Shown here: positions 42,471 to 60,130 of the stretch, piece by piece
Layout of the letters: every line of letters starts with the position of its first letter
Position numbering within the stretch: the first letter of the stretch is position 1
Assembly (NCBI RefSeq): GCF_001578105.1
Contig: NZ_CP014275.1
Location: 2,976,001 to 3,040,000 of the forward strand
Reading direction: 5' to 3'
From: Martelella sp. AD-3
GTDB lineage: Bacteria > Pseudomonadota > Alphaproteobacteria > Rhizobiales > Rhizobiaceae
Length of the DNA stretch: 64,000 bases
Program-made: the position numbers and the translations under genes
Notes under the pieces: model-generated
What the model was told of the DNA's origin: nothing
The model's database searches: none
The model's input: the letters and a program-made list of their open reading frames with translations, nothing else

Positions 42471-42488
42471 CGAGCCGGGAGAATGCCG

Positions 42489-43427
42489 ATGAAATGCGCA
42501 CACACGATCCACGACCATCAGGGCCATCTCGGCTGGGACCGGTCGATCGATCCGGTTCTTGTCGCCCGTTCCGGCGAGACGGTCGCGTTTTCCTGCCGCG
42601 ATGCCGGCAACGGGCACTATGGCCCGGAGAGCACGGCAGCGGATATCCTGACGGCGGAGCCTGGCCAGGCCAACCCGCTGACGGGCCCGCTCTATGTCGA
42701 AGGGGCAAGGCCCGGCGATGCGCTGAAGGTCACCGTCAACGAATTCGCGCCGTCAGGCTTCGGCTGGACGGCGATCATTCCCGGATTCGGCCTTCTGGCG
42801 GATCAGTTCTCCGGACCGCGGCTCAAGCTCTGGAACTATGAGACCGATATCTCGCAACCGGCCGTTTTCAATGCGCTGGCGCGCATTCCGCTGCGCCCCT
42901 TCATCGGCACGATCGGGGTCGCCATGGCCGAACCCGGCAATCACGCGGTGATCCCGCCGCGCCATGTGGGCGGCAATATGGACATTCGCGACATCGCGGC
43001 CGGCACCACGCTCTATCTGCCCGTGGAAGTCGAGGGCGCTTTGCTCTCCATCGGCGACACCCACGCTGCCCAGGGAGACGGCGAGGTCTGCGGCACGGCG
43101 ATCGAGAGCGCCATGGATGTTTCCGTCACCGTCGACGTGATTGAAGGCGCCGCGCCGAAGACGCCGCATTTTTCGACGCCCGGTCCGATTGCGCGCCATC
43201 TTGACGCGGCAGGCTACGAGGTCACCACCGGCATTGGACCCGATCTGATGGACGCGGCACGCACGGCCGTCTCCAACATGATCGAACACCTGGCAAAGAC
43301 CCGCAATCTCGATCCGGCCGACGCCTATATGCTGTGTTCGGTCGCCGGCGACCTGAAGATCAGCGAAATCGTCGACGCCCCCAACTGGGTGGTGTCGTTC
43401 TATTTTCCACGGATCGTGTTCGAATAG
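42489..43427 (+). CDS. Acetamidase/formamidase family protein
   Basis: 312 residues from ATG 42489 (GGGAG seven bases upstream; 42483 is also possible). FmdA/AmdA family features: HYGPESTAADILTAEPGQANPLTGPLYVEGARPGDALKV, then GGNMDIRDIAAGTTLYLPVEVEGALLSIGDTHAAQGDGEVCGTAIE, the most conserved block, and the C-terminal DAYMLCSVAGDLKISEIVD. It hydrolyses short-chain amides to acid plus ammonia. As the last gene of the transporter operon it probably acts on the imported compound or a product of it. Confidence 0.92.
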   Translation: MKCAHTIHDHQGHLGWDRSIDPVLVARSGETVAFSCRDAGNGHYGPESTAADILTAEPGQANPLTGPLYVEGARPGDALKVTVNEFAPSGFGWTAIIPGFGLLADQFSGPRLKLWNYETDISQPAVFNALARIPLRPFIGTIGVAMAEPGNHAVIPPRHVGGNMDIRDIAAGTTLYLPVEVEGALLSIGDTHAAQGDGEVCGTAIESAMDVSVTVDVIEGAAPKTPHFSTPGPIARHLDAAGYEVTTGIGPDLMDAARTAVSNMIEHLAKTRNLDPADAYMLCSVAGDLKISEIVDAPNWVVSFYFPRIVFE

Positions 43428-44949: not shown

Positions 44950-46662
<1,713 letters not shown>

Positions 46663-46687
46663 GGAATTCCTCCTGGGGCGGAAAGCG

Positions 46688-47044
46688 TTATACGGCGGCG
46701 CCGTCGTAATGCTGCGAGCTGAGGCTGCGGGGATCGACGCCGTCGAGGCAATTGGCGTTGACCGCGACCATGTCGGCCCCGTCAGGGGCCGTGACATAAG
46801 CAAAGCTCTCGATACCGCAAGTCTTGCAGAACAGGTGATGGATCTGGCGCTTGTTGAACAGGTATTCGGTCAGGTTGTCCTCGCCGCTGTTCAGCGTGAA
46901 GTCTTCGCGCGGCGCAAACGCCAGCACCGAACCGAGACGCCTGCAGCGCGAGCAATTGCAGGTGACGGTGTGGCCGAGTTCGATATCAACATCGAAGTCG
47001 ACCGCTCCGCACTGACAGCTTCCGTGGTAATGCTGAACAGCCAT
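46688..47044 (-). CDS. GFA-family (CENP-V/GFA) zinc-binding protein inside the urease operon
   Basis: 118 residues. The GFA fold has its zinc cysteines in [20 protein letters not shown] and [14 protein letters not shown]. Founding members relate to glutathione-dependent formaldehyde activation, but most have no known activity. It starts around the ureB stop and ends 25 bp before ureC, so it must be co-transcribed with urease. A role in urease function is possible but unproved; extra genes between urease subunits are known in rhizobia. Confidence 0.9.
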
Positions 47045-47046
47045 GA

Positions 47047-47352
47047 TCAAAGCTTTCCCATGATTTCCTGTCGGAACCCGTAGACCGTGCGGTTGCCGGC
47101 GAAGGGCACCAGCGTCACGTCACGGGTCTGGCCCGGCTCGAAGCGAACGGCCGTTCCGGCTGCGATATCGAGCCGCATGCCGCGCGCCTTGTCGCGCTCG
47201 AAGGCAAGCGCCGGATTGGCCTCGAAAAAGTGGTAATGGCTGCCCACCTGAACCGGCCGGTCGCCGGTATTGGAGACAGTGATGGTGACGGTCGGCAGAC
47301 CGGCATTGATCTCGATTTCGCCCTCTGCGGCGATCAGTTCACCGGGGATCAT
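47047..47352 (-). CDS. ureB: Urease beta subunit
   Basis: 101 residues, normal size. [67 protein letters not shown] and [11 protein letters not shown] are diagnostic. It forms the urease heterotrimer with UreA and UreC. 11 bp after ureA. Confidence 0.98.
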
Positions 47353-47363
47353 GTCTTACCTCC

Positions 47364-47666
47364 TCACCTGATCGGCTCATGCACGGTCACCAGCTTGGTG
47401 CCGTCGGGGAAGGTCGCTTCCACCTGCACGTCGTGGATCATTTCCGGCACGCCGTCCATCACCTGGTCGCGGGTCAGCACATGGGCGCCCGCCTCCATCA
47501 GCTCGGCCACGGGGCGGCCGTCGCGCGCACCCTCGACCACATAGTCGGTGATCAGCGCGATGGCTTCCGGCCAGTTGAGCTTGACGCCCCGTTCCAGCCT
47601 GCGGCGCGCCACCATGGCGGCCATGGAAACCATAAGTTTGTCCTTCTCACGCGGCGTCAGGTTCAT
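47364..47666 (-). CDS. ureA: Urease gamma subunit
   Basis: 100 residues. [50 protein letters not shown] and [20 protein letters not shown] are standard for UreA. 33 bp after ureD and 11 bp before ureB. Confidence 0.98.
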
Positions 47667-47699: not shown

Positions 47700-48575
47700 T
47701 CATAGATGCCAGACTTTCGGCAGATTTTCATTCTCCCGCAAGACCCTTAAGGCGGGAATCAGGCTTTTTCTCAACTGGTAGCCGTCGGGGGCGACGACAC
47801 GGGCGACGAGCTTGCCGTTCCACTCGCTGGCGCCGCCGGCAGACGTCCCGAGGGCCTCGCGCACCCTGGGCATCAGCGCTTCGGCGCGGGCCCCGCAATA
47901 GAGCAGCGTCGCAAAGGCGACATCGCCGCCGAGCACGGCGGCCTGCGATACGAGATTCTCGATATCGCCGGTCATGCGCACATCCTCGGCATGGATCAGC
48001 GTGCCTTTCCGGCGCACCCGCCAGCGATCCCGGAACTGGCCGCGCCGCACCGCCTCGCCCATGGCCTTGCGGCCGAGGAGCACCGCCTCGATCGCCAGAA
48101 ACTCGGCCGTTTCGGCAAGGTCGACGTCCAGCCGGCGATGCAGAGCGGCTTCATCGAAAAGAATGGTTTCCTGTGGCAGCCAGTCGAGCCTTGCGCCCTC
48201 GCCGACGCGCAACTCGCTGTCGATCGTCGCCGGGCCGCCATCGGACCTGTAGATCTTCTCGCAGGCCTGCGTGGTGACCGTCAGCGTCGTGCCCGGATCG
48301 GCCGTCATCACCCATTGCAGCCGGTCGCCGCCGGTCAGCCCGCCGGAGGTGTTGATCAGCACGGCCTCCATGGACCCGTCGAAGCTCTCGGGGATGCGGA
48401 TCTTGGCAGCCCCCTCCTGATAGAACTCATCAAGCCGCGTCCTGCCCGCGGAAAGCTTGGCCCTGACCTCGCCCCTGCCGAAGGTGCGCTGCGCCCGTCC
48501 CGGCATGTCCCGGATCAAGACGTCCACTCCGTCCCGGGGGACGCTTCCTCCAAGCCGCATTTTCTCTGACCGCAC
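47700..48575 (-). CDS. ureD: Urease accessory protein UreD
   Basis: 291 residues from a GTG at 48575 with GAGG upstream; ATG 48560 is an alternative five codons later. UreD/UreH features are PESFDGSMEAVLINTSGGLTGGDRL, TTQACEKIYRS and LPQETILFDEAALHRRLDVDL. With UreF and UreG it forms the scaffold that loads nickel into apo-urease. First gene of the ureDAB-GFA-ureC operon. Confidence 0.96.
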   Translation of the reverse strand: MRSEKMRLGGSVPRDGVDVLIRDMPGRAQRTFGRGEVRAKLSAGRTRLDEFYQEGAAKIRIPESFDGSMEAVLINTSGGLTGGDRLQWVMTADPGTTLTVTTQACEKIYRSDGGPATIDSELRVGEGARLDWLPQETILFDEAALHRRLDVDLAETAEFLAIEAVLLGRKAMGEAVRRGQFRDRWRVRRKGTLIHAEDVRMTGDIENLVSQAAVLGGDVAFATLLYCGARAEALMPRVREALGTSAGGASEWNGKLVARVVAPDGYQLRKSLIPALRVLRENENLPKVWHL

Positions 48576-48760: not shown

Positions 48761-49456
48761 TCAGACGGTCAGGTGGCGGCGCGCCTCCGGCGTATCGAGC
48801 GTGTCGGCGGGTCCGTGATGGACGATCTCGCCGCGATCCATGATATAGACCTGGTCGGCGAGTTCGCGGCAGAAATCGAGATATTGCTCGACCAGAAGAA
48901 TGGCCATGCCGGTTGAATCGCGCAGATAGCGGATCGCCCGGCCGATATCCTTGATGATCGAGGGCTGGATGCCTTCCGTCGGTTCGTCCAGCACCAGAAT
49001 TTTGGGTCGCGTGACCATGGCGCGGCCGATGGCGAGCTGCTGCTGCTGGCCGCCCGAAAGATCGCCGCCGCGACGCGACAGCATTGATTGCAGCACGGGA
49101 AACAGGCTGAAAATATCGTCCGGGATCGTGCGGTCGCGCGCGGCAAGCGGGGCAAAGCCGGTCTCCAGGTTTTCCCGGACCGTCAGCAGCGGAAAGATCT
49201 CGCGCCCCTGCGGCACGTAGCCGACGCCGCGCTTGGCCCGGTGGTAGGGCGCCAGCCCGTCGAGCTTTTCGCCCTGAAAGCTGATGGCGCCGCCCGATGT
49301 CGGATGCTGGCCGGTGACGGCGCGCAGCAACGAGGACTTGCCGACGCCGTTTCGACCCAGCACGCAGGTGATCTTTCCCATCTCGGCGGAAAGCGAAACA
49401 TTCCGCAGCGCCTGCGCCGCGCCGTAATGGAGGTTGACGTTTTCAATGGTCAGCAT
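48761..49456 (-). CDS. urtE: Urea ABC transporter ATP-binding protein UrtE
   Basis: 231 residues, LivF class. Walker A LGRNGVGKSSLLRAV, signature LSGGQQQQLAIGRAM, Walker B ILVLDEPTEGIQPSIIKDIGRAI; the EGIQPSI form is typical of UrtE. The gene closes the urtABCDE operon; a mosaic repeat lies between it and urtD. ureD starts 185 bp downstream on the same strand. Confidence 0.96.
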   Translation of the reverse strand: MLTIENVNLHYGAAQALRNVSLSAEMGKITCVLGRNGVGKSSLLRAVTGQHPTSGGAISFQGEKLDGLAPYHRAKRGVGYVPQGREIFPLLTVRENLETGFAPLAARDRTIPDDIFSLFPVLQSMLSRRGGDLSGGQQQQLAIGRAMVTRPKILVLDEPTEGIQPSIIKDIGRAIRYLRDSTGMAILLVEQYLDFCRELADQVYIMDRGEIVHHGPADTLDTPEARRHLTV

Positions 49457-49713: not shown

Positions 49714-50472
49714 TCACCGCCCCAGATAATTCTCGATGACCTTCGGGTCGTTCGAGACGTAGTCGATCGAGCCCTCGGCGAGCACCGAGCCTTCTGCAAG
49801 GCAGGTGACCTTGACGCCGAGATCGCGGACGAAGCCCATGTCGTGTTCGACGACGACGACGGCGCGGGTCTTCGCGATCTCGCGCAACAGGCGGGCGGTC
49901 TCCACGGTTTCGGCATCGGTCATGCCGGCAACGGGCTCGTCGACAAGGAGAAGCTTCGGCTCCTGCGCCAGAAGCATGCCGATCTCCAGCCACTGCTTCT
50001 GACCGTGGGAGAGATTGGCCGCAAGCTCGTCGCGACGCGGCGTCAGGCGGATCGTCTCGAGGATTTCCTCAATGCGGGTCCGGTCCTCGCTGGTCAGGCG
50101 ATAGAACAGCGTGGAAAACACGCCGCGCCTGCGGTTGAGCGCCAGTTCCAGATTGTCCCACACCGTATGGCTTTCGAATACGGTCGGCTTCTGGAACTTG
50201 CGACCGATGCCGAGCTGGGCGATATCGGCCTCATCCTTGCGGGTCAGGTCGATCGTGTCGGCGAAGAACACCTCACCCGTATCCGGCCGGGTCTTGCCGG
50301 TGATGATGTCCATCATCGTCGTCTTGCCCGCGCCGTTCGGGCCGATGACAGCCCGCAACTCGCCGGGTTCGATGAAGAAGGAAAGGCTGTTCAGCGCCTT
50401 GAAGCCGTCGAAGGACACCGAGACATTGTCGAGATAGAGCAGGCTTTTCGCGCGTTTTTCACTCGGGCTCAT
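49714..50472 (-). CDS. urtD: Urea ABC transporter ATP-binding protein UrtD
   Basis: 252 residues, LivG class. LDNVSVSFDGFKALNSLSFFIEPGELRAVIGPNGAGKTTMMDIITGKTRPD (Walker A), LSHGQKQWLEIGMLLAQEPKLLLVDEPVAGMTD (signature, Walker B) and VVVEHDMGFVRDLG. The SHGQKQWLEIGM form is characteristic of UrtD. Its ATG overlaps the urtC stop. Confidence 0.97.
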   Translation of the reverse strand: MSPSEKRAKSLLYLDNVSVSFDGFKALNSLSFFIEPGELRAVIGPNGAGKTTMMDIITGKTRPDTGEVFFADTIDLTRKDEADIAQLGIGRKFQKPTVFESHTVWDNLELALNRRRGVFSTLFYRLTSEDRTRIEEILETIRLTPRRDELAANLSHGQKQWLEIGMLLAQEPKLLLVDEPVAGMTDAETVETARLLREIAKTRAVVVVEHDMGFVRDLGVKVTCLAEGSVLAEGSIDYVSNDPKVIENYLGR

Positions 50473-51635
50473 CGTGCGCCCTCCTCGCTCGGGGTTACGT
50501 CCATGCCGGCCTCGGCCTGTTCCGAGCGCGCGTTGGCATCATTGCCCTTCTTCGAGAAGCGGTCGGAAATCGTGCCGACAATTCCCTTGGGCAGGAACAG
50601 GGTGACGGCAACAAAGAGACCGCCGAGCGCGAACAGCCAGAAGGCGGGGAACAGCCCGGTGAAGATGGTCTTGCCGCCGTTGACGAGGATCGCGCCGATG
50701 ATCGGCCCGATCAGCGTTGCCCGGCCGCCGACGGCGGTCCAGATGACGACCTCGATGGAATTGGCCGGCGCGAATTCGCCCGGATTGATGATGCCGACCT
50801 GCGGCACGTAGAGCGCGCCGGCAACGCCCGCCATCATGGCCGAGACAACGAAGGTGAAGAGCTTGTAGTTTTCCACGCGGTAGCCCAGAAACCGCACCCG
50901 GCTTTCGGCATCGCGCACGCCGACCAGAACCTTGCCGGACTTCGAACGGACGATTGCCGAGGTAATGAAGAGCCCGATGGCGAGGAAGATGGCGGAGGCT
51001 GCGAACAATGCCGCGCGCGTGCCGTCGGCCTGCACGGAGAAGCCGAGAATATCCTTGAAGTCCGTCAGGCCGTTATTGCCGCCGAAGCCCATGTCGTTGC
51101 GGAAGAAGGCAAGCAGCAGGGCATAGGTCATCGCCTGGGTGATGATCGACAGGTAGACGCCGTTGACGCGCGAGCGGAAGGCGAACCAGCCGAAGGCGAA
51201 GGCCAGCGCGCCGGGCACGAGCAGCACCATCAGCATGGCGAACCAGAACATGTCGAAGCCGTGCCAGAACCAGGGTAGCTCCTGATAGTTCAGGAAGACC
51301 ATGAAGTCCGGCAGGGTCGGATCGCCATAAACGCCGCGCGGGCCGATCTGACGCATCAAATACATGCCCATGGCATAGCCGCCAAGCGCGAAGAAGGCGC
51401 CGTGGCCGAGCGAAAGAATGCCGCAAAAGCCCCAGACGAGATCGAGCGACAGCGCCAGCAGCGCGTAGCAGAGATATTTGCCGAAGAGCGACACGATATA
51501 GGTCGGCAGGTGAAACGGGCTTCCCGCCGGGATGAGAAGATTGAGGACCGGCACCAGCAGGGCGATGCCGAGCAGGATGGCGATCGCGATCGAGATCCTG
51601 CGGTCGAGCGAGCGGAGAACATAGGCCGTAATCAT
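50469..51635 (-). CDS. urtC: Urea ABC transporter permease UrtC
   Basis: 388 residues, LivM class, with 9-10 hydrophobic helices. LWGFCGILSLGHGAFFALGGYAMGMYLM and GVRDAESRVRFLGYRVENYKLFTFVVSAMMAGVAGALYVPQVG are family signatures. The start overlaps the urtB stop by ATGA and the end overlaps urtD by ATGA. Confidence 0.97.
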   Translation of the reverse strand: MITAYVLRSLDRRISIAIAILLGIALLVPVLNLLIPAGSPFHLPTYIVSLFGKYLCYALLALSLDLVWGFCGILSLGHGAFFALGGYAMGMYLMRQIGPRGVYGDPTLPDFMVFLNYQELPWFWHGFDMFWFAMLMVLLVPGALAFAFGWFAFRSRVNGVYLSIITQAMTYALLLAFFRNDMGFGGNNGLTDFKDILGFSVQADGTRAALFAASAIFLAIGLFITSAIVRSKSGKVLVGVRDAESRVRFLGYRVENYKLFTFVVSAMMAGVAGALYVPQVGIINPGEFAPANSIEVVIWTAVGGRATLIGPIIGAILVNGGKTIFTGLFPAFWLFALGGLFVAVTLFLPKGIVGTISDRFSKKGNDANARSEQAEAGMDVTPSEEGAR

Positions 51636-53272
51636 GATTCAACCGCCCTTCCCTTGAGTGCGAACAGACCGCGCGGCCGTTTCTGGATGAACAGGATGAT
51701 GAAGACGAGCACCAGGATTTTGCCGAGAACGGCGCCGGCATAGGGCTCGAGGAACTTGTTCAGGATGCCGAGCGAGAAGGCGCCGACGAAGGTGCCCCAG
51801 AGATTGCCGACGCCGCCGAAGACCACGACCATAAAACTATCGATGATGTAGGACTGGCCGAGATTGGGCGAGACATTGTCGATCTGCGACAGCGCGACCC
51901 CGGCAAGCCCCGCAACGCCAGATCCCAGGGCAAATGTGAAGGCATCGACCCAGGGCGTGCGGATGCCCATGGAGGCGGCCATGCGCCGGTTCTGCGTCAC
52001 CGCCCGCATCTGCAGGCCGAAGGCGGAGCGCTTCATCAGCATCAGAAGGCCGAGAAACACGGCCAGCGAAAAGACAACGATCCAGAGCCTGGACCAGGTG
52101 ATGACCAGCCCGCCGAGATCGAAGGCGCCGGACATCCAGGACGGATTGCCGACCTCGCGGTTTGTCGGGCCGAAAATGCTGCGCACCGCCTGCTGCAGGA
52201 TCAGCGAAACGCCCCAGGTGGCCAGCAGGGTTTCCAGAGGACGGCCATAAAGGAAGCGGATGACGCCGCGCTCAATCACGAGGCCGACGGCAGCGGTGAT
52301 GAGGAAGGCAACCGGAAGGGCAATCGCCAGCGACCAGTCGAAAAGGCCGGGATAGGAGGTGCGGATCACCTGCTGCACCATAAAGGTGGAGTAGGCGCCA
52401 ATCATCACCATTTCGCCATGGGCCATGTTGATGACGCCCATGACGCCGAAGGTGATGGCAAGGCCGATCGCCGCCAGAAGCAGAACGGAACCAAGGGAGA
52501 GGCCATACCAGACGTTCTGCGCCGCGTCCCAGAAGGCAAGGCGCTTTTCGATCTTCGCCTGGGCGGCATCGACCTCGTCCTGCAGTTCCGGATCGAGCGA
52601 ACCGCGCGCCGAGAGAAGGATGGAGATCGCATCGCGCCCGCCGATCGCGGCGATGTCGTTGATCGCCTCGGCCTTGGCCTCGATCGGACGGGAGGAATTC
52701 AGGATGGAGATGGCGCGGGCCTGGCCGAGGGCTGCGGCAATCTCGCCGTCCTCTTCTGCCGCAAGCGCCTCTTCGATCAGCGCCAGATTGTCCTCGCTCG
52801 GCGCGTTCATCATGGCGCGGGCGGCTGAAAGCCGGATAGTACGATCAGGGCTCATCAGCGTCAGCCCGGCGATCGCGGCATCGATGGAGCGCCGAAGATT
52901 GTTGTTGACCTTGACCTTCTCGAGGTCGCGCTTGGAGCGTTCCCCGGCTTCCGCGCCGGTCAGCGGGTCGATCAGCACAAGATTGCGGCTCGATGACCCC
53001 TTCCTGGTGATGAAGACCGCGCCGTCATCCTCGCGGTAATAGAGATCGCCGTTGGAAAGAGCTCTCAGCGCGGGCAAAACGGCGATATCGCCCGTCGCCG
53101 CAAGCGCTTCGACCAGTTTCTCGGTCTGACCGAAATTCCGGGCTTCGGAGAACTGATCAATCAGCGACCCGGCGTCGTCGGCCGCCCGGGAGAGAGAGGG
53201 CGCACATGCCAGTACCAGTATTGCAAATAAGATAAAGGTTCTGAAATAGCGCGGTAGTAGAGAAATGGACAT
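51632..53272 (-). CDS. urtB: Urea ABC transporter permease UrtB
   Basis: 546 residues from ATG 53272. A signal-like helix (YFRTFILFAILVLACAPSLSRAA) leads an extracytoplasmic extension of about 260 residues with HEAT-like repeats (LRALSNGDLYYREDDGAV), usual for UrtB. The LivH-type permease follows (GVINMAHGEMVMIGAYSTFMVQ; GTFVGAFSLGILNKFLEPYAGAV). It starts 92 bp after urtA, separated by two stem-loops. Confidence 0.96.
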   Translation of the reverse strand: MSISLLPRYFRTFILFAILVLACAPSLSRAADDAGSLIDQFSEARNFGQTEKLVEALAATGDIAVLPALRALSNGDLYYREDDGAVFITRKGSSSRNLVLIDPLTGAEAGERSKRDLEKVKVNNNLRRSIDAAIAGLTLMSPDRTIRLSAARAMMNAPSEDNLALIEEALAAEEDGEIAAALGQARAISILNSSRPIEAKAEAINDIAAIGGRDAISILLSARGSLDPELQDEVDAAQAKIEKRLAFWDAAQNVWYGLSLGSVLLLAAIGLAITFGVMGVINMAHGEMVMIGAYSTFMVQQVIRTSYPGLFDWSLAIALPVAFLITAAVGLVIERGVIRFLYGRPLETLLATWGVSLILQQAVRSIFGPTNREVGNPSWMSGAFDLGGLVITWSRLWIVVFSLAVFLGLLMLMKRSAFGLQMRAVTQNRRMAASMGIRTPWVDAFTFALGSGVAGLAGVALSQIDNVSPNLGQSYIIDSFMVVVFGGVGNLWGTFVGAFSLGILNKFLEPYAGAVLGKILVLVFIILFIQKRPRGLFALKGRAVES

Positions 53273-53288
53273 GTGCGCCCCCAACGTT

Positions 53289-53347
53289 GACAGTCCGCCT
53301 CGCAAAGGACTGTCCCCCTGTTCACCCGGCGCGAAACACGCGCCGGG
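53289..53347 (-). promoter_or_regulatory. Two stem-loops in the urtA-urtB intergenic mRNA
   Basis: First, CCCGGCGCG with CGCGCCGGG (53325-53333 / 53339-53347), a 9-bp GC stem with a 5-nt loop, 17 nt after the urtA stop. Second, GACAGTCC with GGACTGTC (53289-53296 / 53307-53314), close to the urtB start. Neither is followed by a T-run. They are suited to protecting or partly terminating the urtA message so that binding protein exceeds permease. Confidence 0.7.
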
Positions 53348-53363
53348 AGCCGAGTTGCCGTTC

Positions 53364-54659
53364 TTATTCGGCAGCCATGCCGCCACACTGGCCGGTTTCG
53401 ACGTTGAAGTTGCCGCACGACATCGGCGCGCGCCAGTCGGCGATCAGGTTCTTCGAATCCGGCAGGTAATCGGACCATGCGTCGCCGGCGACGAGACCGG
53501 GCGTTTCGTAAACGATGTCGAACTGGCCATCATCCTGGATCTCGCCGATCAGCACCGGCTTGGTGATGTGGTGGTTCGGCATCATCGCCGAATAGCCGCC
53601 CGAAAGATTCGGCACGGAAACGCCGATGAGCGCATCGATGACGGCATCCGGATCGGTGGTGCCCGCCTTCTCGACCGCCTCGACCCACATGTTGAAGCCG
53701 ATATAGTGGGCTTCCATCGGGTCGTTGGTCACGCGGGAATCGTCGCCGGTGTAAGCGTGCCAGGCATCGATGAAGTCGTAATTCGCATCGGTGTCGACGG
53801 ACTGGAAGTAGTTCCATGCGGCCAGATGACCGACAAGCGGAGCGGTATCGAGACCGGCGAGTTCTTCCTCACCCACGGAAAATGCCACAACCGGGATATC
53901 GGACGCGGAAATACCCTGGTTGGCGAGCTCCTTGTAGAAGGGCACATTGGCGTCGCCGTTGATGGTGGAGACCACGGCCGTCTTCTTGCCCTCCGAGCCG
54001 AAATTCTTGATGTCGGAGACGATCGTCTGCCAGTCGGAAAAGCCGAACGGCGTGTAGTTGATCATGATGTCTTCTTCGGCAACGCCATGATCCTTGAGAT
54101 AGGCTTCGAGGATCTTGTTGGTCGTGCGCGGATAGACATAGTCGGTACCGGCTAGAACCCAGCGCTCGACGCCTTCATTCTCCATCAGGTAATCGACGGC
54201 GGGAATGGCCTGCTGGTTCGGCGCAGCACCGGTGTAGAACACGTTGCGCTGGCTTTCCTCGCCCTCATACTGGACGGGATAGAAGAGGATGCTGTTCAGT
54301 TCCTCGAAGACCGGCAGAACCGATTTGCGCGACACCGACGTCCAGCAGCCGAAGACCGCCGAAACGCCATCGCCTTCGATCAGTTCGCGCGCCTTTTCGG
54401 CAAAGAGCGGCCAGTCGGAGGCCGGGTCGACGACAACCGCCTCAAGCTGCTTTCCCAGAAGGCCGCCCTTTTCGTTCTGCTCTTCGATGAGCATCAGCAT
54501 GGCGTCCTTCAGCGTCGTCTCCGAAATCGCCATCGTGCCGGAGAGCGAGTGCAGGATACCGACCTTGATCGTGTCTTCCTGCGCCAGCGCGCCGGTTGCG
54601 GTCGAAGCGGCGAGCGCCGCCAGAAGAGCCGCGCCGGTCATTGCCTTTTTGAAATTCAT
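53364..54659 (-). CDS. urtA: Urea ABC transporter substrate-binding protein UrtA
   Basis: 431 residues. A signal peptide (KAMTGAALLAALAASTATGALA) precedes the UrtA/AmiC-type fold: VGILHSLSGTMAISETTLKDAMLMLIEEQNEKGG, FGCWTSVSRKSVLPVFEELNSILFYPVQYEGEE, and GAAPNQQAIPAVDYLMENEGVERWVLAGTDYVYPRTTN. These are the signatures of urea binding proteins. It heads the urtABCDE operon. Confidence 0.97.
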   Translation of the reverse strand: MNFKKAMTGAALLAALAASTATGALAQEDTIKVGILHSLSGTMAISETTLKDAMLMLIEEQNEKGGLLGKQLEAVVVDPASDWPLFAEKARELIEGDGVSAVFGCWTSVSRKSVLPVFEELNSILFYPVQYEGEESQRNVFYTGAAPNQQAIPAVDYLMENEGVERWVLAGTDYVYPRTTNKILEAYLKDHGVAEEDIMINYTPFGFSDWQTIVSDIKNFGSEGKKTAVVSTINGDANVPFYKELANQGISASDIPVVAFSVGEEELAGLDTAPLVGHLAAWNYFQSVDTDANYDFIDAWHAYTGDDSRVTNDPMEAHYIGFNMWVEAVEKAGTTDPDAVIDALIGVSVPNLSGGYSAMMPNHHITKPVLIGEIQDDGQFDIVYETPGLVAGDAWSDYLPDSKNLIADWRAPMSCGNFNVETGQCGGMAAE

Positions 54660-54757: not shown

Positions 54758-54789
54758 ACCCCACATACGTCATTTGACGTAGGCGGGGT
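54758..54789. promoter_or_regulatory. 32-bp extended palindrome upstream of urtA (candidate operator)
   Basis: ACCCC-N3-TACGTCA-TT-TGACGTA-N3-GGGGT: the inner 16 bp (54766-54781) are a perfect dyad and the outer ACCCC/GGGGT arms are symmetric as well. It is 100-130 bp upstream of urtA and 24-55 bp after the hydroxylase stop. TACGT half-sites suit NarL/FixJ/LuxR-type regulators, and such a regulator is encoded at 59210. A hairpin terminator role for the hydroxylase gene cannot be excluded. Closer to urtA, TGGCGCAGGCGTTGTT is a weak sigma-54-like match. Confidence 0.55.
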
Positions 54790-54812: not shown

Positions 54813-55628
54813 TTATGGCCTGTTCCGAAGCGCCTCGGCCTCGGCATAGAACTTCTTTTCCCAGTCCTTGTGGTTGTCGAGACCTTCGCGGATGAAGGGC
54901 GTGAAGATCGCCATGTTCATCAAGAGCCAGTTGATGAAGCGGGCGGGAAAACGCGTGGGCTTGACGAAATCGACGAACAGGACGACGCGGGTCTTGTCCG
55001 TGTGGTTCCAGGCCTCGTGCTCATAGGCATCGTCGAAGATCAGCACCTTGCCCTCTTCCCAGTGGCAGATCTGGTCCTTGACCCGGATCGCGAGCTGATC
55101 GGGCTCGGCCTCCGGCACGATCATGCCCAGATGAAGACGCAGCACGCCGTTATAGGGGCCGCGATGGGCCGGCAGGTGCTTTCCCGGCTCGAAGATCGAG
55201 AACATCACCGTCGTCAGTCCGGGGATCTTCTGCATCGCCTCCCAGGTCTTCGGGCAGGCCTTGATGTTCTGTTCCGATTTCAGCCCGTAGCCGAGCAGGA
55301 AGAAGGTCTTCCAGTGATTGTCATCGGAAATCGTCTTCACGTCCGTGGAGATATCCTGAAAGCTCGGCAGTTCGCTCTGGCGCTCCAGCACCTTGTCGAG
55401 TTCGGCGCGGATGGCGGGGGCCGCCGCCTCGATCTCCTTCGACCAGGGAAAGGTGGCATTGTCGTAGACGGGCGGATTGCCGTAGATCGCATGTTTGAAA
55501 TTGAGCTTTTCCGCCCAGTTGACGACGCCCATGAAAAACCGCGTCACAGCGCTCGGGCGCTCCATCGGCGCGATGCCGTCGGTTCCGAAGCTCTGGCCGT
55601 CCTTGCCTTTCGTTTCGGTATGCGTCAT
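54813..55628 (-). CDS. Aspartyl/asparaginyl beta-hydroxylase-domain protein (LpxO/OlsC-like)
   Basis: 271 residues from ATG 55628. The Fe(II)/2-oxoglutarate dioxygenase core is visible as MFSIFEPGKHLPAHRGPYNGVLRLHLGMIVP (first His of HRG and LRLHLG) and WEEGKVLIFDDAYEHEAWNHTDKTRVVLFVDF (second His and Arg). The C-terminal FINWLLMNMAIF is hydrophobic. Relatives include LpxO (lipid A) and OlsC (ornithine lipid) hydroxylases, so a membrane-lipid substrate is plausible. Its position between urtA and the sensor kinase has no obvious functional reason. Confidence 0.85.
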   Translation of the reverse strand: MTHTETKGKDGQSFGTDGIAPMERPSAVTRFFMGVVNWAEKLNFKHAIYGNPPVYDNATFPWSKEIEAAAPAIRAELDKVLERQSELPSFQDISTDVKTISDDNHWKTFFLLGYGLKSEQNIKACPKTWEAMQKIPGLTTVMFSIFEPGKHLPAHRGPYNGVLRLHLGMIVPEAEPDQLAIRVKDQICHWEEGKVLIFDDAYEHEAWNHTDKTRVVLFVDFVKPTRFPARFINWLLMNMAIFTPFIREGLDNHKDWEKKFYAEAEALRNRP

Positions 55629-55815
55629 GAACCTCTCCTTTATGCGGCTCTGCAGCTTCAACTGACCGCGATCATCCTAACATTCCCCGAAAAAAGGAAA
55701 AAGTGCGGCGGATGACGCGAATCGGGCCGCGTTTTCGCTTGCCATCGTCAGCCATTGCCTGAACATTCGAAAAAGCCAAGTTTCTTTTCACCTGCAGGCG
55801 CCGCACACACGATCG

Positions 55816-58800
55816 ATGACACCACGCCAACGCATCATTCCCGTCCGGCGCGAGTATAACCGCTGGGTCGCCAACCAGACGCTTGAGGACTATGCGTTGC
55901 GCTTCACCGCCAAGAGCGCGCGCCGGTTTTCCTCAAGCCGCATCTCGCAGACGGCGATCGGCGCGATCTCCTTTCTGGCGCTGGAAGCGATCGGCGGCAC
56001 GATCACGCTGTCCTACGGCACGACCAACGCCTTCTTCGCGGCCATCGTCGCCTCCGCGGTCATGCTGCTTGCCGGCCTTCCGATCGCCAAATACGCGATC
56101 CGCCACGGCGTCGACATCGATCTTCTGACGCGCGGCGCCTCCTTCGGCTATATCGGCTCGACGGTGACCTCGCTGATCTATGCGAGCTTCACCTTCATCC
56201 TGTTTGCCATCGAAGCATCGATCATGTCGGGCGCGCTGGAGCTCGCCTTCGGCATTCCACTGTGGATCAGCTACATCATCTCGGCCGTGCTGGTGATCCC
56301 GCTCGTGACCTACGGCGTGCAGATGATCTCGCGCTTCCAGCTGATCACGCAGCCCTTCTGGATCATCCTCAACATCCTGCCCTTCATCTTCATCGCCTTC
56401 ATGGACTTCGAAAAGTTCGAGCTGTGGCGGGCCTTTGGCGGCATACGGGCGGAAAGTGCCGCCCCCGGTTCGGCTGCCCCGTTCACGCTGGCCGGCTTTG
56501 CGGCGGCGGCCGGCGTCATCTTCGCGCTGATGCCGCAGATCGGCGAGCAGGTCGATTTCCTGCGCTTTCTGCCGGCGACGGGAAAACGCAAGTTCCGTCA
56601 TCGCCTGGCAATCTTTCTCGCCGGTCCCGGCTGGGTGGTGGTGGGCGTGCCGAAACTGATGGCCGGCTCGTTTCTTGCCGTGCTCGTGCTTTCCACCGGC
56701 ATGCCGGCAACGGCGGCGGCCGACCCGGCGCACATGTATCTGACCGCCTTCGGCTACATGATCCCGAACGAAACGGCGGCGCTGTTGCTGATGGCCGCCT
56801 TCGTCGTCGTCTCGCAACTGAAGATCAATGTCATGAACGCCTATGCGGGCTCGCTCGCCTGGTCGAACTTCTTCTCCCGCCTCACCCACAGCCATCCCGG
56901 CCGCGTCGTCTGGCTGGTGTTCAACGTGGCGATCGCGCTGCTTCTGATGCAGCTCGGCATCTACCGGCTTCTGGAAGCCTCGCTCAGCGTGTTCTCGATC
57001 GTCGCCATGGCCTGGCTGTCGACCATCTCCGCCGACCTCTTCATCAACAAGCCGCTCGGCCTCTCCCCGCCCGGGATCGAATTCAAGCGCGCGCATCTCT
57101 ACGACATCAACCCCGTCGGCCTCGGCGCCATGGCGCTTTCCTGCCTCGTCGCACTGGTGGCCCATTTCGGGCTGTTCGGCGCGCTCGCCGTTTCCTTCGC
57201 CCCCTTCATCGCGCTCGTCGTCGCCCTCATCGCCTCGCCGCTGATCGCCTGGGGCACGGGCGGGCGCTATTACCTGGCGCGCAGGCAACGCCGGGGCTGG
57301 CGGACGAAGACGGCGATCACCTGCTCGATCTGCGAACATCCCTTCGAGCCGGAGGACATGGCCTGGTGTCCGGCCTATGCAGGACCGATCTGCTCGCTCT
57401 GCTGCTCGCTCGACAGCCGCTGCCATGACCTGTGCAAACCCAAGGCGCGGCTCAACACCCAGATCGCGACCGTCGCCGGCGCGCTGCTGCCCGCCCGGCT
57501 GGTCGAGCAGCTTTCCTCCCGGCTTGGCCGCTACGGCATCACGGCGGCGCTCTCGGTCACCTTCATCGGCGCGATCCTTTCGATGATCGCCTACCAGATG
57601 GCCCGCGCAGCGCCTGAGACGGCCTCTGTGGTCTATGACACGGCGCTGATCGTGTTCTTCGTCTTCGCCATGCTCGCCTGCATCATCGCCTGGTTTTACG
57701 TGCTCGCCCATGACAGCCGCATGGTGGCGGAGGAGGAATCCTCGCGCCAGACGACCCTGCTCTTGAAGGAAATCGCCGCCCACGAGAAAACCGATGCCGC
57801 GCTCCAGGCCGCGAAGGAGAGCGCCGAAGCCGCCAACCGCGCCAAGAGCCGCTATGTCGTCGGCCTCTCGCATGAATTGAGAACGCCGCTCAACGCCGTC
57901 TCCGGCTATGCACAGCTGCTGGAGCGCGACCCGACCATACCCGATGCGCGACAGCCCGCGATCAAGTCGATCCGCCGCTCGGCCGACTATCTCTCGGGCC
58001 TGATCGACGGGCTGCTGGATATCTCACGGATCGAATCCGGACGGCTTCAGGTGTTCTCCAACGAGATCAACCTCGCCGAATTTCTCGACCAGATCATCGA
58101 CATGTTCGAGACCCAGGCCCGGGCCAAGGGGCTGATATTCGAGCACACACTCGACCGCCACCTGCCGGCCTATGTGCGCACCGACGAAAAGCGCCTGCGC
58201 CAGATCCTCGTCAACCTGCTCTCCAACGCGGTGAAGTTCACCGATGCCGGCAGCGTATCGCTTGTGGCGCGCTATCGCAGCCAGGTGGCGACCTTTATCG
58301 TCACCGACACGGGCAGCGGCATCGCCGCTAAGGACCTTTCGCGCATCTATGAGCCGTTCGAGCGCGGCGGCGGCAGGGAAAAGCCGGGGCTCGGCCTCGG
58401 CCTCACCATCACGCGGCTTCTGGTCAACACGCTCGGCGGCGAAATCGAGGTGGAAAGCCGGGAGGGCTCGGGCACACGCTTTACCGTACGCCTCATGCTC
58501 GCCTCCATCGACCGGCCGCAGCCGCCGCGCGTGGCCGGCGACACCGCCGTCGCCGCGGGCTATGACGGGCCGCGCCGCACAATCATGGTCGTTGACGACA
58601 ATGCCGATCATCGTGCGATGATGCGCGACATCCTCCTGCCGCTAGGCTTCGACGTCATGCTCGCCGAAGACGGAGAGACGGTATTCGGCCTGCTCGAAGA
58701 CACGACGCCGGATATCTTCCTGCTCGACATCCGAATGCCGGGGATGAATGGCTGGCAGCTTGCCACCCGGCTGCGCGATGCCGGTATGACGAAACCCATC

Positions 58801-59217
58801 GTGATGCTCTCGGCCAATATCGGCGACGACGCCATCATCGGCCATGGGGATGACAGCCATAACGACACGCTGTCGAAACCCCTCAATCTCAAGCGCCTGC
58901 GCGACGTTCTGGCGCTGCATCTCGGCCTCATCTGGCGGGAAACGCCGGACGAAAGCACGCGCGCCGCGCCCGAGATGCCTGAAGTCTTGCAAACGCCGCC
59001 GGATTCGCAGCTTGATGAATTGATCCGGCTCGCCGAGATCGGCTATCACCGTGGCGTCCGGGAAAAGCTGGCATCGCTTTCGGCGGAAGACGCATACCGA
59101 TCTTTCGCGACCGAGGCCTCCGCCTTTGTCGCCCGTTTCGACCTGGACGGCCTCGTCGCCTATCTGAACAGGCTCAAGTCCGGCGTCGCCGGGAAGGATA
59201 CCGCGCAAGATGGCTGA
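55816..59217 (+). CDS. NCS1-permease-like hybrid sensor histidine kinase
   Basis: 1133 residues, one continuous frame. Residues 14-490 form a 12-helix nucleobase-cation-symport (NCS1)-like permease (YNRWVANQTLEDYALRFT, SRFQLITQPFWIILNILPF, NAYAGSLAWSNFFSRLTHSHPG). Residues 503-540 carry eight cysteines (503, 506, 518, 526, 529, 530, 536, 540), a zinc-ribbon-like segment. Two more helices and a coiled coil lead to HisKA with His686 (SHELRTPLNAVSGYAQLLER), the N-box NLLSNAVKF, G-boxes DTGSGIA and GLGLGLTI, then a receiver with Asp971 (LLDIRMPG). The tail has no HPt motif. It overlaps the response regulator by 8 nt. By analogy with CbrA, it probably senses a solute; urea or a ureide is inferred from the urt neighbours. 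Confidence 0.88.
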   Translation: MTPRQRIIPVRREYNRWVANQTLEDYALRFTAKSARRFSSSRISQTAIGAISFLALEAIGGTITLSYGTTNAFFAAIVASAVMLLAGLPIAKYAIRHGVDIDLLTRGASFGYIGSTVTSLIYASFTFILFAIEASIMSGALELAFGIPLWISYIISAVLVIPLVTYGVQMISRFQLITQPFWIILNILPFIFIAFMDFEKFELWRAFGGIRAESAAPGSAAPFTLAGFAAAAGVIFALMPQIGEQVDFLRFLPATGKRKFRHRLAIFLAGPGWVVVGVPKLMAGSFLAVLVLSTGMPATAAADPAHMYLTAFGYMIPNETAALLLMAAFVVVSQLKINVMNAYAGSLAWSNFFSRLTHSHPGRVVWLVFNVAIALLLMQLGIYRLLEASLSVFSIVAMAWLSTISADLFINKPLGLSPPGIEFKRAHLYDINPVGLGAMALSCLVALVAHFGLFGALAVSFAPFIALVVALIASPLIAWGTGGRYYLARRQRRGWRTKTAITCSICEHPFEPEDMAWCPAYAGPICSLCCSLDSRCHDLCKPKARLNTQIATVAGALLPARLVEQLSSRLGRYGITAALSVTFIGAILSMIAYQMARAAPETASVVYDTALIVFFVFAMLACIIAWFYVLAHDSRMVAEEESSRQTTLLLKEIAAHEKTDAALQAAKESAEAANRAKSRYVVGLSHELRTPLNAVSGYAQLLERDPTIPDARQPAIKSIRRSADYLSGLIDGLLDISRIESGRLQVFSNEINLAEFLDQIIDMFETQARAKGLIFEHTLDRHLPAYVRTDEKRLRQILVNLLSNAVKFTDAGSVSLVARYRSQVATFIVTDTGSGIAAKDLSRIYEPFERGGGREKPGLGLGLTITRLLVNTLGGEIEVESREGSGTRFTVRLMLASIDRPQPPRVAGDTAVAAGYDGPRRTIMVVDDNADHRAMMRDILLPLGFDVMLAEDGETVFGLLEDTTPDIFLLDIRMPGMNGWQLATRLRDAGMTKPIVMLSANIGDDAIIGHGDDSHNDTLSKPLNLKRLRDVLALHLGLIWRETPDESTRAAPEMPEVLQTPPDSQLDELIRLAEIGYHRGVREKLASLSAEDAYRSFATEASAFVARFDLDGLVAYLNRLKSGVAGKDTAQDG

Positions 59218-60130
59218 GAACGCCGCACAGGAAATCGTACTTCTGGTGGACGACAGTCCGGAGGCGCTGAGCTTCCTGACCGAGGCGCTGGAAGACAGCG
59301 GCTATTCCGTTCTGATCGCAACCTCAGGCGAAAGCGCGGTCAGCATCGTCGCGCGCATCACGCCCGATATCGTGCTGATGGACGCGGTGATGCCGAAGAT
59401 GGATGGGTTCGAGGCCTGCCGGCGGCTGAAGTCCGGACCGGCAGCGCAAAGCCCCGTGATCTTTATGACCGGGCTTTCGGAAACCGAACACATCGTCCAC
59501 GCGCTGGAATCCGGCGGCGTCGACTATCTGACCAAGCCAATCAATATCGATGAACTGAGGGCGCGCATCCGCGTGCATCTTGCCAATGCCCGCTCGGCCC
59601 AGAGCGCGCGGGTGGCGCTGGACGCGACCGGCCGGCACCTTCTGGCCGCCGGGCCCGACGGCGCGCCGCGCTGGATGACGCCGCAGGCCGGCAGGCTGAT
59701 CGGCGAGGCGGCGGGCGGCGCGCCGGACATGAGCCTCATCGGGGACCGGATCTCTGCCTGGCTTGGCGAGGCCAATATCGGCGAAACGCCCGGCGGCCAG
59801 ACGACGCTGCCGGTCACGCGAAACGGCGAGACGCTGTTCCAGCTTGTCTTTCTGGAGAAGACAGGCGCGGACGAATTCCTGTTCCGCGTTACCGCCGCCA
59901 ATCCCGTGAGCGACGACGAAACGCTCAGGAAACATTTTCCCCTGACCGTGCGCGAATCCGAAGTGCTGCTGTGGATCGCCAAGGGCAAGACCAACCGCGA
60001 CATCGCCGATATTCTCGGCCTTTCAACGCGAACGGTGAACAAGCACCTTGAAACCATCTATGTGAAACTCGGCGTCGAAAACCGCGCCTCCGCCGCGGTG
60101 AAGGCGGCCTATGTGCTGCATGATATGTGA
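59210..60130 (+). CDS. LuxR-type response regulator partner of the permease-kinase
   Basis: 306 residues. Receiver domain: IVLLVDDSPEALSFLTEAL with acidic pair, phospho-acceptor Asp58 in IVLMDAVMPKMDG, Thr in FMTGLSE, Lys in YLTKPIN. A linker of about 100 residues precedes the GerE/LuxR helix-turn-helix LTVRESEVLLWIAKGKTNRDIADILGLSTRTVNKHLETIYVKLGVENRASA. It starts within the kinase gene, so the pair is stoichiometrically coupled. The TACGTCA dyad before urtA is a candidate target (inferred). Confidence 0.93.
   Translation: MAENAAQEIVLLVDDSPEALSFLTEALEDSGYSVLIATSGESAVSIVARITPDIVLMDAVMPKMDGFEACRRLKSGPAAQSPVIFMTGLSETEHIVHALESGGVDYLTKPINIDELRARIRVHLANARSAQSARVALDATGRHLLAAGPDGAPRWMTPQAGRLIGEAAGGAPDMSLIGDRISAWLGEANIGETPGGQTTLPVTRNGETLFQLVFLEKTGADEFLFRVTAANPVSDDETLRKHFPLTVRESEVLLWIAKGKTNRDIADILGLSTRTVNKHLETIYVKLGVENRASAAVKAAYVLHDM

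Follow-up and report, generated by a model that had tools for sequence, protein, structure and literature searches.

In a 64,000-nucleotide stretch of the genome of Martelella sp. AD-3 (hereafter the window), a hybrid sensor kinase with a transporter-like N-terminal domain and its LuxR-type partner regulator are encoded close to a urea transport and urease locus. The kinase gene (55816..59217, + strand) encodes a protein of 1133 residues comprising a domain with the fold of the nucleobase-cation symporters (NCS1; residues ~22-483), a segment with eight cysteines (residues 503-540; 57322..57435, + strand; C-x2-C ... C-x7-C-x2-CC-x5-C-x3-C), two long helices (569-598 and 600-656), HisKA (677-742), HATPase_c (789-895) and receiver (923-1032) domains, and a tail to residue 1133. 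It overlaps by 8 nt with the gene for the partner response regulator (59210..60130, + strand), which comprises a receiver (REC) and a LuxR-type DNA-binding domain. An earlier note made from the DNA alone had described both this domain order and the overlap; the former was borne out by the domain scan and fold comparison, the latter follows from the coordinates. With HisKA, HATPase_c and a receiver carrying their motifs, and with a partner response regulator, the protein is a two-component hybrid histidine kinase. The Pfam scan listed no Hpt domain for the route from the kinase receiver to the partner, and no STAC domain in the sensor, for which no STAC profile was compared and 25 of 153 NCBIfam matches were listed. 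The closest named match is from Martelella endophytica (92% over the N-terminal 660 residues of the sensor). Between olsC and urtA, 107 bp before the urtA start codon, lies the candidate operator TACGTCATTTGACGTA (54766..54781, assigned to neither strand), an inverted repeat newly found here and absent from the earlier note.

When residues ~22-483 were compared to known folds, the cytosine permease CodB and the hydantoin permease Mhp1 were the best matches by a clear margin, with 14–16% identity in the structural alignment. PF02133, the NCS1 family model, gave no hit at E ≤ 1 in the window protein, in three stand-alone relatives or in two other sensors, and a PDB sequence search with the permease part returned no permease, the best 60 listed matches being only kinase and receiver chains. 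The permease identity was visible by fold comparison only, and the earlier designation of the domain as NCS1-like holds for the fold and fails for the Pfam family match. CodB and Mhp1 share the fold but differ in their substrates, in lacking a kinase and in showing no Pfam-level similarity.

The domain was found in 78 of 397 genomes of a Pseudomonadota sample at E ≤ 1e-3 (65 at E ≤ 1e-150 by hand count, 13 weak), in 23 of 289 genomes of a class sample (one weak, one partial) and in 26 of 81 of a family sample (two weak, one fragment). Matches were also present in 528 plasmid records (342 from Klebsiella), and in 506 of the records they span 80% or more of the query. One hundred regions of up to 20 kb were fetched round the hits, and 91 of them, including the window locus (L059), contain a full-length sensor; L131-L135 and L155-L158, with weak, partial or no match, were left out. 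Neighbouring genes were called at author-set thresholds, and alignments served to estimate gene starts; neither the neighbour counts nor those of the palindrome allow for phylogeny. On this basis, urtA-like, urease, fmdA or amiS genes were found in 83/91 sensor regions, up to ~9 kb away, compared to 0/20 control regions from the same genomes at the same thresholds, which had no urtA-like hit either. A chance neighbourhood is thereby ruled out, and the link to nitrogen genes that the earlier note had suspected proves to be a strong one among the relatives. The most frequent arrangement was a urtA-like gene together with fmdA (formamidase; 39 regions), followed by a urtA-like gene only (20), a urtA-like gene with urease (13), urease only (8) and fmdA with amiS (3), leaving eight regions with none of these; in three of the eight (L140, L145 and L148) urtA is located on the same contig, ~11-26 kb away. 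Sensor loci encode urtABCDE and a formamidase in Klebsiella, fmdA-urtABCDE in Chelatococcus and Paraburkholderia, urt-ure in Methylosinus, and fmdA with an AmiS/UreI-type transporter in Paracoccus. FmdDEF-type transporters have a role in urea and amide uptake. In one Klebsiella plasmid locus (L025), urtABCDE and the formamidase gene are divergent to the sensor. A regulator gene is adjacent and on the same strand in 76 of the 91 loci under a strict rule, and in seven further loci a matching regulator open reading frame overlaps that of the kinase by more than 300 nt in stop-to-stop coordinates.

The palindrome was recognized by listing the DNA before the sensors, which gave a loose pattern TACGY-N6-RCGTA, typically TACGTCA-NN-TGACGTA; the copy at 54766..54781 is its sole exact match in the window. 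It was searched for in 105 loci, namely the 91 regions, six plasmid loci (L025-L030) and eight Acinetobacter loci, with several genera repeated. Within 900 bp before the sensor it was present in 56/105 loci (Markov expectation 0.06, with a maximum of 1 in 50 runs); the 20 control regions had no copy anywhere. When the 500 bp before the sensor, urtA, fmdA, ureD, ureE or amiS were considered, 72/105 loci had an exact copy and nine a copy with one mismatch, while five shuffled runs gave no exact copy and a one-mismatch average of 4.8. Twenty-six exact copies are not before the sensor: 13 are positioned 95-156 bp before urtA and six 81-122 bp before fmdA, and the remaining seven are not close to any gene of this set. 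As 19 of the 26 precede urtA or fmdA, autoregulation of the sensor as the only role of the palindrome is ruled out. Where urtA is more than 900 bp from the sensor (22 loci), an exact copy precedes urtA in 13. On pSymB of Sinorhizobium meliloti 2011 (L026), the pair is encoded close to urtABCDE and the palindrome is located before urtA. Three loci from one genus (L065, L076 and L077) carry the palindrome 82-102 bp before the sensor despite the absence of urea genes from the fetched region. In four others (L028, L125, L126 and L154) the kinase is shorter and lacks a receiver, and fmdA and a gene of AmiS/UreI type are its neighbours; these loci have neither an exact palindrome nor a regulator matching that of the window, and probably form a separate branch with a regulator of its own.

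The co-occurrence of palindrome and sensor was further examined in 81 Rhizobiaceae genomes, 53 of which encode UrtA, using the stricter pattern TACGYNRNNYNRCGTA within 0-400 bp before an urtA. Only full-length matches were taken as sensors, so that G691 (fragment), G660 and G668 (both weak) were not counted, and G684 has a sensor without UrtA. The palindrome preceded urtA in 19 of the 22 UrtA genomes with a sensor vs 0 of the 31 without (1.3e-11 in a Fisher's test, which takes the genera as independent). Seventeen of the 19 copies stand before a proper urtA and two before an fmd-type relative, and two of the three misses (G515 and G697) have a one-mismatch copy. That the palindrome belongs to urtA regardless of the sensor is ruled out in this family by the 0/31, and its position before urtA, as a candidate operator, links the regulator to the urea genes.

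Relatives of the sensor domain also occur as permeases without a kinase. The plasmid hits in Acinetobacter lwoffii and Arthrobacter are of this type (~40% identical), the former encoded directly before ureEFG and ureDABC, and a scan of named genomes gave at least 80 more (L179-L258). Among the 80 listed loci, 25 have urease genes, five urea carboxylase (called by eye) with allophanate hydrolase, one allophanate hydrolase alone, and eight a sensor-regulator pair beside the permease. The proximity to urease and urea carboxylase genes makes these permeases the best clue for urea as the ligand. Of the 72 such loci without a sensor, five have an exact palindrome somewhere, none of them, from the listed positions, within 500 bp before the permease. 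The stand-alone proteins (from Acinetobacter, Klebsiella, Streptomyces, Mycobacterium and others), three of which were scanned without a Pfam hit, are candidate urea permeases.

The 105 sensors were aligned with 29 of the stand-alone permeases (every third of 81, plus L209 and L228, two stand-alone permeases with long stop-to-stop frames that were counted with the permeases); in a tree, the 27 stand-alone rows, L209 and L228 formed one group. Seven residues are invariant in both sets (E133, Q241, E244, Q245, D247, N338 and N341), and three positions separate them. Position 57 is Glu in 105/105 sensors and Phe in 29/29 permeases, position 56 is Asp in 29/29 permeases and Leu (87), Met (11) or Cys (7) in the sensors, and position 344 is Ala in all 105 sensors and Ser in all 29 permeases. 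Positions 56/57 and 344 may be located at an ion or substrate site.

The domains, the fold, the conserved neighbourhood, the palindrome before target genes and its co-occurrence with the sensor in the Rhizobiaceae were all computed directly. Taking these together, we consider it likely that the pair is a two-component system sensing urea, either alone or along with short amides (formamide, for example), through a domain derived from an NCS1-fold urea permease, and acting on the urt/ure genes through the palindrome. Urea or a short amide would bind the permease-like domain, and the Cys segment, which may hold a metal, would together with the two long helices relay the change to the HisKA/HATPase core. 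The REC-LuxR partner is the predicted binder of TACGTCA-NN-TGACGTA ~100 bp before urtA, and would most likely activate the urt/ure operon in the window; in other genomes its targets would be urt/fmd, urease or permease genes.

Several observations weigh against this interpretation. In eight of the 91 loci no regulator matches 80% of that of the window, and 33/105 loci lack an exact palindrome, nine of these having a one-mismatch copy when 4.8 would be expected. In the 22 loci with a distant urtA, the copy is before the sensor instead in four (L030, L070, L073 and L078) and before neither gene in five. The mirror positions of the palindrome show no co-variation beyond column composition, save for pair 5/12, and sensor and site may simply be co-inherited. 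Among the permeases, the Arthrobacter protein (L031) has no urea gene in 21.5 kb, and 41 of the 80 listed loci, some on short contigs, have no tested urea gene within 9 kb. Furthermore, no urea gene is found near the pair in five of the 91 fetched regions (L065, L069, L076, L077 and L121; the rest of these genomes was not searched for urtA), as would fit a pair that senses the general nitrogen state and has the urea locus as one of many targets. Against so broad a regulon, the genome of Martelella sp. AD-3 holds three exact copies of the loose pattern, degenerate copies uncounted, and only the one at urtA is intergenic, the other two being inside open reading frames. We regard this as the least probable of the alternatives.

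The nearest solved folds being cytosine and hydantoin permeases, the sensor might instead bind a larger NCS1-type ligand (a purine, cytosine, hydantoin or allantoin), with the urea genes controlled since urea is the catabolic end product. The lack of a Pfam match to the cytosine/purine permease family, the urea and formamide genes neighbouring the sensor in 83 of 91 regions, and the frequent location of the nearest stand-alone permeases by urease or urea carboxylase make this very unlikely. The ligand list of the earlier note (urea, allantoin, hydantoin or a purine) is accordingly narrowed towards urea, because the recurrent neighbours are genes for the urea ABC transporter, urease and formamidase and the nearest stand-alone permeases are often encoded next to urease or urea carboxylase genes; the other three are only disfavoured, since the neighbour survey did not extend to genes for purine, hydantoin or allantoin use. 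A cytoplasmic signal is also unlikely, if somewhat less so: the Cys segment would read a metal (zinc, or nickel for urease) or redox, and the permease-like domain would be an anchor only. The eight cysteines are invariant in 105/105 sensors, Cys 530, 536 and 540 occur in 0/29 permeases and Cys 518 in 13/29, and the SLC5 domain of CbrA is stated, in an introduction on SLC5-type kinases, to be non-essential for signal perception (PMC9100948). On the other hand, Cys 503 is present in 29/29 and Cys 506, 526 and 529 each in 24/29 of the kinase-free permeases, and nickel sensing leaves unexplained the 42/91 regions with formamidase and without a urease gene. The transmembrane helices (TM) 6b, 8 and 3 are moreover the best-conserved stretches between sensors and permeases, which argues against a mere anchor, though TM6a and TM1a are poorly conserved. 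A search of 249 genomes for the Cys segment in other kinases gave 44 matches in 40 genomes, all at places of already known sensors; as a module common to other kinases, it was thus found in no other architecture at that search sensitivity.

Urea-responsive control of urease genes is known from UreR of enterobacteria, which is alike in its signal and target, but is a soluble AraC-type protein. The nearest precedent for the logic of the window pair is CrbS/CrbR (MxtR/ErdR), in which a transporter-domain hybrid kinase with a receiver is likewise joined by a LuxR-type regulator, and this regulator acts through an imperfect inverted repeat located before its targets (PMC5715377); CrbS/CrbR differs in its SLC5 domain, STAC linker and acetate genes, and its ACTU repeat is another sequence. 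CbrA and RpuS/RpuR likewise fuse a transporter-like domain to a histidine kinase, the RpuS partner being LuxR-type (PMC9100948, PMC13022988, PMC7918813), but have an SLC5 domain, respond to histidine or pyruvate, and use STAC and PAS linkers rather than an 8-Cys segment. In the ammonium sensor kinase Ks-Amt5, a transporter fold has, as proposed for the window sensor, become a nitrogen receptor on a kinase, with transport reportedly lost (PMC5764959); the fold there is Amt and the ligand ammonium. A urtABCDE operon beside LuxR-type two-component genes has been reported from Ectopseudomonas, in passages that do not describe the sensor domain (PMC13296017). A literature search of mostly open papers turned up no description of an NCS1-type kinase or of the operator, and PMC11109136 did not contain the queried terms.

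The urea locus of the window is encoded on the - strand. The urea ABC transporter comprises the binding protein UrtA (53364..54659; TIGR03407, 571.1 bits, cut-off 492.75) and, each above the cut-off of its model, UrtB (51632..53386; TIGR03409), UrtC (50469..51635; TIGR03408), UrtD (49714..50472; TIGR03411) and UrtE (48761..49456; TIGR03410). It is followed by a ureD-like urease accessory gene (47700..48575), which had no NCBIfam hit at 1e-10 and whose product is 40% identical over 90% to that of the annotated ureD of L030, by ureA (urease gamma, 47364..47666) and ureB (urease beta, 47047..47352), both assigned by eye from the translation, and by ureC (urease alpha, 44950..46665, start estimated; TIGR01792, 985.7 bits, cut-off 680). 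A small Cys-containing open reading frame (46688-47050), GFA-like by eye, separates ureB from ureC and shares their strand. The gene between sensor and urtA, olsC (54813-55661), is on the strand opposite the sensor. An acetamidase/formamidase-like protein (42483-43427), scoring 122 bits against the FmdA model with its cut-off of 500, is encoded after what appears by eye to be a cluster for an ABC transporter of the oligopeptide type and a GntR-type regulator.

It is possible, if still tentative, that an NCS1-fold urea permease has here become a dedicated urea receptor, marked by the changes in the first core helix (56/57) and in helix 8 (344), with the three to four added cysteines forming a second metal site that couples receptor to kinase. 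To our knowledge, such a family of bacterial membrane receptors for urea would be without precedent. With a small and cheap candidate ligand, a stand-alone relative, a predicted operator and a wide range, the change from permease fold to receptor is directly testable. Transporter-shaped kinases of known function are few and their signalling mode is debated, and the pair described here is relevant to the way in which bacteria induce urea utilization: it represents a widespread proteobacterial permease-type sensor that very probably turns on genes for the uptake and breakdown of urea and formamide. If the receptor origin is true, the regulon signature of this family would be common to alpha-, beta- and gammaproteobacteria.
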